Both the position numbers and the translations under genes were made by a program. A model generated the notes under the pieces. The model was not told the DNA's origin and searched no databases. It was given only the letters and a program-made list of their open reading frames with translations. A DNA stretch of 64,000 nt, taken from contig NZ_QJKC01000003.1 in assembly GCF_003202035.1 (NCBI RefSeq), positions 62,001 through 126,000 on the forward strand. The letters are read 5' to 3'. The DNA is from Aquitalea magnusonii (GTDB taxonomy: Bacteria > Pseudomonadota > Gammaproteobacteria > Burkholderiales > Chromobacteriaceae). This document shows, piece after piece, positions 58,128 through 62,282 of the stretch. Every line of letters starts with the position of its first letter. The stretch's first letter is position 1.

Positions 58128-58502
58128 ATGCCAACACCCCCATTCTTTACGGCCTTGTGCCAAGCTTTTCGCCGTGCACACCTGTTTGCCGTCCTGCTGC
58201 TCATCCCGCTCACCGCCCTTGCCGACAGCAGCTTGCAGCTGTCATCCGACAAAAAACCCGCAGAGGTGGCGGACTGCCTGAAACAGGGCATCCGCCAGCT
58301 GAAGATTCCCGATGACTATGTACGGCGCGACAGCAAGGCCGATGGTACGGAAACCATCAGGCTGCTCAACCCGGTCAGCGGCAACACCAGCCTGCAAGTG
58401 GATGTACAGCCCGATGGCGAGCACAGCCGGCTGCAGGTCGACCAGAACGGCATCCCGCTGACCCCGCCCTGGTTGCGCCTGATCAAGCGCTGCGCCAGCT
58501 GA
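58128..58502 (+). CDS. small exported protein of unknown function
   Basis: A 124-residue protein: signal peptide (about 1-32, ending PLTALADS), then a short domain with two Cys (ADCLKQGIRQL and LIKRCAS at the end), which could form a disulfide. No family recognised. It follows the DUF2214 gene by 79 bp and may be read with it. The ATG at 58128 is preceded by AGCAGAACC with no clear ribosome site. Its stop is directly followed by the DnaA-box-like array. Confidence 0.7.
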   Translation: MPTPPFFTALCQAFRRAHLFAVLLLIPLTALADSSLQLSSDKKPAEVADCLKQGIRQLKIPDDYVRRDSKADGTETIRLLNPVSGNTSLQVDVQPDGEHSRLQVDQNGIPLTPPWLRLIKRCAS

Positions 58503-58918
58503 CGCCAGCTGTGGACAAGTCCACCAGCAGCGTCTGCGCTGTGGATGAGCGGGATAAAACCTGAACAAGCTGTGCATAAGACATGCGCAACCTGCCCGCA
58601 ATGCGTGACAATGCCCCGCACATGGCGCCGCCGCCGCTGTGCATATTTTTCCAGATGGCCATTCTGCTGTGGATATTGTGCACAGCCTGTGCATGAATCT
58701 GTGGATAAAATCGGCATGACCCTCACCCGCCCCCGGCTTCAGACGGCGCCTTCCACCCATCCCGCAGCGGCCCGGCACGAGCGCCAGCAATTGCTGCACT
58801 GCCTGCTGCAAGACTAGCCACCGTGCTGTCCGTGACAGCAAATGACATCCCATCATCAATTTTTCATGTCTGCGGGATTACACTGTGCTGAATTGTCATC
58901 TACAGCCAGTTAACTGCC
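58503..58918. other. 416-bp region without a gene, with a DnaA-box-like array
   Basis: No credible coding frame. The first 206 bp carry the array described next; the remainder (58710-58918) is ordinary sequence with a probable DUF2252 promoter in AATTTTTCATGTCTGCGGGA.. and no further boxes. Confidence 0.6.
58510..58708 (+). repeat. array of DnaA-box-like 9-mers, all one orientation
   Basis: TGTGGACAA 58510, TGTGGATGA 58540, TGTGCATAA 58571, TGTGCATAT 58638, TGTGGATAT 58668, TGTGCACAG 58677, TGTGCATGA 58688 and TGTGGATAA 58700. The last is a perfect DnaA box (TTATCCACA reversed); others differ by one to three bases. Start-to-start steps 30, 31, 67, 30 and 32 (main boxes) keep them near three helical turns apart. 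All lie on the same strand. Binding by DnaA is inference from sequence. Confidence 0.65.
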
Positions 58919-60301
58919 ATGCCCACTCCCGCACATCTGCAATATGAAAAACGCCTGGCCGCCGGCAAGGCGCGCCGTGAAAGCTGCTCCCGCACCCTGC
59001 AGGCGCAATGCCTGCTCAGCCCGCAACGCGACGTGGTGGACATGCTGCGCCAGACCTCCGCTGGCCGGGTCCCTTCGCTGATTCCCCTGCGCTACAGCCG
59101 CATGCAGGCTTCGCCCTTTGCCTTCTTCCGCGGCATGGCCATGATCCAGGCCGCCGATCTGGCCGCCACCCCCAATAGCGGCATCACCCTGCAAACCTGC
59201 GGCGATGCCCACCTGATGAACTACGGCTTCTTCGCCTCGCCGGAACGCCAGCTGATGTTCGACATCAACGACTTCGACGAAACGCACCAGGCGCCGTGGG
59301 AATGGGACATCAAGCGCCTGGCGGTCAGCGTGGTGCTGGCGGCGCGCAATCGCGGCTTCAGCAATGCGGCAGCACGCCAGGCGGTGTGCCAGCTGGTGGG
59401 AACCTACCGCAAGCGCATGCAGGAATATGCCCAGATGAGCCAGCTGGAGCTGTGGTACTGCAAGGTGGGCTTCGAACAATTACTGCAGCGGGCCAATAGC
59501 GACAGCATCCGCCAGCAGCTGCTGAAGCTGGCGGACAAGGCGCGCGGCCAGACCCAGGAAAAACTGCTGCCAAAGATGACGGTACTGGAAGACGGCAGCC
59601 TGCGGCTGCGCGACAACCCGCCGGTGATCTTCCACATGCAGCAGCAAGACCAGGTCTGGGGCAATGATGAGCACTGGCTGGGCGATGGCAGCTCACACGA
59701 CTTGCTGCACACCATGCTGGCCGAGTACAGCGCCACGCTGAAAGAAGACCGCCGCACCCTGCTCAGCCGCTTCCGGCTGGTGGATGCCGCCTTCAAGGTG
59801 GTGGGGGTGGGCAGCGTCGGCACCCGTTGCTTGGTGATGCTGCTGCAGGATGAATACGACCAGCCGCTGTTCCTGCAATTGAAAGAAGCGCGCAACTCGG
59901 TGCTGGAGCCCTACACCCAGCCCTGCGTGCACGGCCACCAGGGCAAGCGTGTGGTGTTTGGCCAGCGGCTGATGCAGGCTGCCAGTGACCTGTTCCTGGG
60001 CTGGACGACCGGGCCGGGCGACCGTCATTTCTATGTACGCCAGCTGCGCGACATGAAGGCAGCACCGGCACTGGAATCATTCGACTCGGCGGAAAGCCTG
60101 GCGGCATTCGGCCAGGCCTGTGCCTGGGCACTGGCACGCGCCCATGCCAAATCCGGTGGCCGTGCTGCGGAAATGGCCGGCTATATCGGCCAGTCGGACA
60201 AATTCGACCAGGCCATCGCCAGCTATGCCATGAGCTATGCCGATCAGGTGGAGCTGGATTTTGCTGTTTTTACTGCCGCTTTGGCCGAACACAAGCTATA
60301 A
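58919..60301 (+). CDS. DUF2252 protein
   Basis: A 460-residue protein of the DUF2252 family, which has a kinase-like fold: RYSRMQASPFAFFRGMAMIQAADLA (about 58-82), TCGDAHLMNYGFFASPERQLMFDINDFDETHQAPWEWDIKRL (about 98-139, with a GDxHxxN catalytic-loop-like site and a DFDE-like metal site), and GWTTGPGDRHFYVRQLRD later. No substrate is known for the family. Its 5' region carries the DnaA-box-like array. ATG 58919; the hairpin at 60383-60406 follows. Confidence 0.9.
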   Translation: MPTPAHLQYEKRLAAGKARRESCSRTLQAQCLLSPQRDVVDMLRQTSAGRVPSLIPLRYSRMQASPFAFFRGMAMIQAADLAATPNSGITLQTCGDAHLMNYGFFASPERQLMFDINDFDETHQAPWEWDIKRLAVSVVLAARNRGFSNAAARQAVCQLVGTYRKRMQEYAQMSQLELWYCKVGFEQLLQRANSDSIRQQLLKLADKARGQTQEKLLPKMTVLEDGSLRLRDNPPVIFHMQQQDQVWGNDEHWLGDGSSHDLLHTMLAEYSATLKEDRRTLLSRFRLVDAAFKVVGVGSVGTRCLVMLLQDEYDQPLFLQLKEARNSVLEPYTQPCVHGHQGKRVVFGQRLMQAASDLFLGWTTGPGDRHFYVRQLRDMKAAPALESFDSAESLAAFGQACAWALARAHAKSGGRAAEMAGYIGQSDKFDQAIASYAMSYADQVELDFAVFTAALAEHKL

Positions 60302-62127: not shown

Positions 62128-62282
62128 CATGTGCCATGGCCGGCCGCAGCGATATCGCGCTTGCCCTCCCCCCTGCCGGTGGCATAATGCCCACAGGGCT
62201 CAGCCCGCAAAATCAAAAAAATGCAGCACCGACAGACAGGCAGATAGATGAAACAATCGAGAACACTCCAGGGGAGACCTGC

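Follow-up and report, generated by a model that had tools for sequence, protein, structure and literature searches.

The stretch of DNA analyzed here, referred to as the window, comprises 64,000 nucleotides of the Aquitalea magnusonii genome (G000:C3:62001-126000). Genomes used for comparison carry similar designations and were grouped by genus (g1, Aquitalea; g2, Chromobacterium; g5, Crenobacter; g10, Vogesella; other genera are given by number). Within the window, a non-coding cluster of putative DnaA boxes lies in the following context.

58128..58502, plus strand: small, exported-looking open reading frame (ORF) of 124 amino acids, with no Pfam family
58510..58708, boxes on the minus strand: DnaA-box array, non-coding, between the 124-amino-acid ORF and the DUF2252 gene
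58510..58579, minus strand: first triad, boxes at 58510, 58540, and 58571, with steps of 30 and 31 bp
58551..58570, no strand: conserved spacer block, GGGATAA...GAACAAGC, directly before the third box
58604..58611, no strand: conserved CGTGACAA-type linker motif, about three helical turns past the first triad
58638..58708, minus strand: second triad, boxes at 58638, 58668, and 58700 (the last a perfect TTATCCACA), with steps of 30 and 32 bp
58668..58708, minus strand: dense end, boxes at 58668, 58677, 58688, and 58700, with gaps of 0, 2, and 3 bp
58716..58817, plus strand: short ORF resembling an alpha/beta-hydrolase gene reduced to its start and its end by an apparent internal loss
58919..60301, plus strand: gene for a DUF2252 protein (PF10009), the next full gene downstream of the array

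A scan of the window placed the starts of eight TGTG-type 9-mers at 58510, 58540, 58571, 58638, 58668, 58677, 58688, and 58700. The original prediction described eight 9-mers of the form TGTGNATNA on one strand within 199 bp, one of them a perfect DnaA box. The count, the span, and the start distances of 30, 31, 67, 30, and 32 bp (the last from 58668 to 58700) were correct. However, the literal motif matched only four of the eight boxes. With one mismatch to TGTGNATAA allowed, seven match on the same strand; the box at 58677 has two mismatches on that strand and is overlapped by an opposite-strand, one-mismatch box at 58676. The box at 58700 is an exact TTATCCACA, and the box at 58571 is an exact TTATNCACA.

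The boxes are much denser than expected by chance, as judged from shuffles of the window and from sampled stretches of the congener G002. Dinucleotide shuffling of the window (200 replicates) gave at most 3 boxes per 199 bp, and no more than 2 per 200 bp were found in G002, in which twenty 20-kb stretches (400 kb) contained 128 boxes. In the A. magnusonii genome, of 4.4 Mb, the pattern TGTGSATN{20,25}TGTGSATN had six matches, three of which are in the array, and the reversed control had none.

The array was present in all 10 Aquitalea genomes, in 18 of 19 Chromobacterium genomes, in one of six g7 genomes (G043), and in the only g8 genome (G044). The resulting 30 arrays come from related species and are not independent. 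In one Chromobacterium genome (G023), neither the query region nor the small ORF had a match. The same was true of the other five g7 genomes, in which the array was checked by the triad pattern alone. When this pattern was searched for in 61 genomes of the family, it gave 11 matches, 10 at the array and one in G044, and none in the control; it detects 11 of the 30 known arrays, and its silence elsewhere does not prove absence. In g3, g4, g5, and g9, no box cluster accompanied the small ORF in any of the 10 genomes that have this ORF. Thus, the family does not need the array in general.

Among relatives that have the array, its spacing is conserved, as the original prediction required. Across the 10 Aquitalea genomes the boxes lie at offsets of 0, 30, 61, 126 to 128, 156 to 158, 165 to 167, 176 to 178, and 188 to 190, each within 2 bp, and the mean pairwise identity of these arrays was 0.84 in box columns versus 0.50 in spacer columns. 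Single arrays consist of five to eight boxes under a one-mismatch rule; the seventh position is without a box in G009, and several boxes are degenerate in other species. The linker between the triads is about 65 to 67 bp in Aquitalea, about 41 bp in several Chromobacterium arrays, and 55 bp in G044. Sequence other than the boxes is also conserved. As in the spacer block of the window, a GAACAAG-type sequence precedes a box in several Chromobacterium arrays, and GAACAAA or GAACAAG does so in G044. The CGTGACAA-type motif in the linker may be a degenerate box or a site for another protein.

A triad of boxes stepped by approximately 30 and then 31 bp (range, 29 to 32 bp) was found in all 30 arrays, with 0 to 3 mismatches to TGTGNATAA summed over the three boxes. 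A second triad had no more than 3 mismatches in 22 arrays and 4 mismatches in a further six; in the remaining two arrays it had 5 and is doubtful. In G044 the triads lie at 0/30/61 and 116/146/177. For comparison, the best triad in the twenty 20-kb stretches of G002 had 6 mismatches, and the best triads in Escherichia coli datA, in DARS2, and in the organism's own oriC had 6 to 9 per strand. When boxes were randomly re-placed within each array (100 shuffles each, G044 excluded), the phasing gave P values of ≤0.05 in 24 of 29 arrays and 0.06 to 0.08 in the other five.

The genes surrounding the array are less constant. The stop codon of the 124-amino-acid ORF lies 7 bp from the start of the array in the window and 3 to 8 bp from it in six other Aquitalea loci. 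In G001, G002, and G005, a full-length alpha/beta-hydrolase gene occupies the place of the short ORF at 58716..58817 (family assigned by Pfam on the G002 protein only). The next gene picked at that place in G003, G004, and G008 is not an alpha/beta hydrolase. Both neighbors differ in G044, in which, as read from the ORFs, the array has an aldo/keto-reductase-like gene on one side and a glutamine-synthetase-like gene on the other; a relative of the latter is found in the window at 62136.

One possible function of such an array is that of a DnaA-responsive operator, at which bound DnaA would repress or activate the following gene (the alpha/beta hydrolase or DUF2252 gene) and so couple its expression to the replication cycle. 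The neighbors in the window are co-oriented, the start codon of the hydrolase gene is about 10 bp past the last box in G002 and G005, and the start picked for the DUF2252-type gene is 69 to 103 bp past the last box in 8 of 18 Chromobacterium loci. However, the array stays while the downstream gene varies from a hydrolase gene to its remnant, a DUF2252 gene, or, in G044, the glutamine-synthetase-like gene, which speaks against a simple operator, and eight boxes in two triads are presumably more than one operator needs. We therefore consider the operator unlikely, although a promoter role of some kind is possible, because many arrays end close upstream of a gene start.

The location of the array in the chromosome was compared with those of dnaA and oriC. 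As the original prediction stated, dnaA is not close; in the A. magnusonii genome it is outside the window, on the same contig, approximately 145 kb from the array. The array-dnaA distance was 115 to 153 kb in eight of nine mapped genomes and 366 kb in G022. There is a second, shorter DnaA homologue, which is Hda-like by length and score. In G002, a complete genome, sampled stretches show a turn in cumulative GC skew at approximately 1155 kb, at a cluster of boxes beside waaC-like genes that is larger and more AT-rich than the array. The array, at 1432 kb, is 276 kb from this oriC, and dnaA is 132 kb from it. The corresponding cluster of perfect boxes in the A. magnusonii genome is at C9:54 kb, beside heptosyltransferase-like (waaC-like) genes (gene names read from ORFs); its region had matches in all 16 genomes searched, and the box layout recurs in the stretches that were read.

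These results bear out the earlier view that the array is not oriC. An origin would be expected at the GC-skew minimum with an AT-rich unwinding region, and the array has neither; its GC content is 0.548, compared with 0.435 for oriC, consistent with the earlier remark that the sequence is not very AT-rich. An accessory or former replication origin was considered as well because the number of boxes is similar to that of oriC. The GC content of 55%, the lack of a skew switch in the stretches around the array, and the coincidence of the G002 skew minimum with the waaC-like cluster argue against it, and such an origin is extremely improbable. Skew and AT content, together with the waaC-like cluster elsewhere, led to the rejection of oriC and of a former origin as candidates.

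In the nine mapped genomes, in each of which the chromosome is a single contig, the array lies 242 to 527 kb from oriC, or 0.107 to 0.198 of the replichore (oriC coordinates are approximate). It is thus an oriC-proximal DnaA-box cluster outside oriC. The boxes of the skew-defined oriC are the same words as those of the array, which makes DnaA the natural reader of the array, and there is a strong case, from the box sequences, that DnaA binds it.

Several well-studied loci of this broad kind are available for comparison. According to passages in two reviews, E. coli datA is an early-duplicated locus that binds several DnaA molecules and lowers the level of free or ATP-DnaA (PMC5295017, PMC8682772). 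Like datA, the array is a non-coding, origin-proximal, early-replicated cluster of five or more boxes. It exceeds the approximately five boxes of a datA-type cluster outside oriC (eight in 199 bp, with datA scanned in the same way), and its distance from oriC is conserved within the range given above for the nine mapped genomes with approximate oriC coordinates. Unlike the array, datA has no 30/31 triad, and the gene context differs. A further difference concerns integration host factor (IHF), as datA activity requires boxes 2 and 3 and an IHF site, according to a portion of PMC4585315. The scan that found an exact IHF consensus in datA found none within one mismatch in the window at 58400 to 58950, and among 28 arrays, one-mismatch matches were present in five, four of these only over box-type sequence. 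Canonical datA, which has its IHF site between essential boxes, was therefore rejected. Of the original prediction, a real, non-random, conserved array that has meaningful phasing and is not oriC is supported, whereas titration or reactivation of DnaA by it is a proposal, and membership in datA fails on the IHF site. The missing IHF consensus also counts against a datA-like function more generally.

Reactivation of DnaA would be the function of a DARS-like site, at which the array would promote the release of ADP from DnaA and stimulate initiation. In the three-box DARS core, box I is oriented opposite to box II, and DARS2 has IHF and Fis sites in addition (PMC8682772 and PMC4585315, in the sections available). 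Like DARS1 and DARS2, the array is an intergenic locus with multiple boxes. The opposed box at 58676 is followed by co-oriented boxes 12 and 24 bp on, a partial similarity to DARS2, in which our scan gave 14 and 26 bp (steps of 12 plus 12 versus 14 plus 12 bp; the assignment of the core is our own reading), and opposed boxes 15 bp apart occurred in 12 cases in 28 arrays. However, a box opposed at the place of 58676 is kept in only 1 of 10 Aquitalea arrays, seven of the eight window boxes (≤1 mismatch) share one orientation, the scan for IHF sites gave nothing in the window array, and E. coli DARS2 is without a 30/31 triad. Membership of the array in the DARS class is thus unsupported by its sequence, and a DARS-like function appears quite unlikely.

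In Bacillus subtilis, several box clusters are located outside oriC, and removal of all six leads to early initiation (PMC5295017, citing Okumura 2012). Because early initiation follows this removal, the clusters can be read as DnaA-lowering, and like the array they are origin-proximal; the same review states, however, that no cluster with a significant role has been identified in B. subtilis. The loci are unrelated to the array, and phasing of triads at approximately 30 bp is not described for them in that part of the review (PMC5295017). A gap of 2 to 3 bp between boxes is preferred by E. coli DnaA in vivo, as a section of PMC11317965 reports. The dense end of the array has gaps of 2 and 3 bp like these double DnaA boxes, but the array and the dispersed pairs described below step mainly by 29 to 32 bp.

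The 61 genomes of the family were also searched for perfect boxes (TGTGGATAA) in tandem, separated by 0 to 30 bp. Among the 150 pairs listed, the gap was 20 bp in 97, 21 bp in 48, 5 bp in four, and 3 bp in one, so that 145 of 150 were at 20 to 21 bp. Gaps of 31 to 61 bp accounted for only 10 pairs in total. In a sample of 399 genomes from across the order, searched for gaps of 10 to 30 bp, all 14 of the family pairs listed had gaps of 20 to 21 bp, compared with 5 of 38 outside the family; one reversed control also matched (G369). G059 and G060 each had a pair in the search from 0 to 30 bp and none in the search from 10 to 30 bp, so their gaps are below 10 bp. Phasing of approximately 30 bp is thus a trait of the family that recurs outside the array. 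One listed pair (G018:C28) sits inside an array, which links the array to the dispersed pairs. No third box approximately 30 bp away was recurrent among 22 pairs in 20 stretches, although one dispersed pair had a perfect box 59 bp upstream, and the dispersed elements are therefore pairs, not triads. An origin of the spacing in a repeat family was rejected because the inner sequences differ between sites by eye.

In eight genomes with one-contig chromosomes, all 37 mapped pairs were within 0.353 of the replichore from oriC, and 31 of the 37 were co-directional with the replication fork; many of these pairs are orthologous, and the species are related and not independent, so that P values calculated for these distributions are too favorable.

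Some places recur among the pairs. Four perfect boxes surround the end of a thiC-like gene approximately 16 kb from oriC in A. magnusonii (G000:C9:69927-70160), and include one tandem pair with a gap of 20 bp. A perfect tandem pair was listed in 9 of 10 Aquitalea genomes (not G002), and at least those of G000, G001, G003, and G004 occupy this thiC-like site. In six Chromobacterium genomes (G016, G017, G021, G022, G024, and G028), phased pairs recur approximately 9 to 13 and 25 to 35 kb from oriC, at positions that seem conserved. Crenobacter genomes G036 (C13, C14, and C17) and G035 had at least 12 and at least 8 perfect tandem pairs, of which 11 and 7, respectively, among those listed were at gaps of 20 to 21 bp; by eye, their inner sequences have a loose common pattern, unlike those in Chromobacterium. 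In another family of the order, f44 (G103, G257, G286, G315, G344, G372, G398, and G424), the gap was 14 bp in six of the eight pairs listed and 23 bp in two. Thus, preferred box spacing may differ by family.

The spacing and position of the pairs raise the alternative that another, family-specific protein or a partner of DnaA reads the phasing of approximately 30 bp, with the boxes as half-sites, and that these loci organize or mark origin-proximal DNA rather than govern the supply of DnaA. The difference in gaps between family and other pairs in the order-wide sample, the preference of mapped pairs for running with the fork, and the conservation of the non-box motifs GAACAAGC and CGTGACAA are consistent with such a reader. 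However, oriC in the same genomes has the same words, and DnaA should recognize them. Another reader seems very unlikely.

Of the roles considered, a datA-like one appears the most likely, by analogy with the known loci. We think it somewhat probable, from the sequence comparisons, that the array is a stand-alone, non-coding, oriC-proximal DnaA-binding control locus of the Chromobacteriaceae that lowers free or ATP-DnaA and delays re-initiation. The two triads, with steps of 30 and 31 to 32 bp, or about three helical turns, would display DnaA on a single face of the DNA, a geometry in which we have moderate confidence. The extra boxes at one end, 0, 2, and 3 bp apart, could nucleate a cooperative DnaA complex. 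At 11 to 20% of the replichore from oriC, the array would be copied within minutes of initiation, and the doubled array would then bind or inactivate surplus DnaA, delaying the next initiation. That the array lowers free or ATP-DnaA is, by analogy with datA, a moderately supported proposal.

A rule of approximately 30-bp spacing was not found described in the literature searched (queries for datA are weakened by hits to the ordinary word data), and a search for DnaA boxes in Chromobacterium or Neisseriales gave only a Laribacter genome paper that mentions a predicted oriC. It is quite possible, and we suggest it tentatively, that the Chromobacteriaceae have an architecture of DnaA control that is new to this literature, built from rungs spaced at three helical turns, with two-triad arrays at one locus and dispersed, mostly fork-co-directional perfect-box pairs in the origin-proximal third of the replichore. 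Such an architecture would operate without IHF, perhaps relying on a partner or a trait of DnaA that is specific to the family and reads the phasing. How bacteria limit re-initiation is largely an open question outside a few species such as E. coli and B. subtilis. A small, conserved cis element and phased pairs, the spacing of which can be broken with 5-bp insertions, would make it possible to distinguish titration of DnaA from its inactivation, and to determine which spacing DnaA reads, in a little-studied group.
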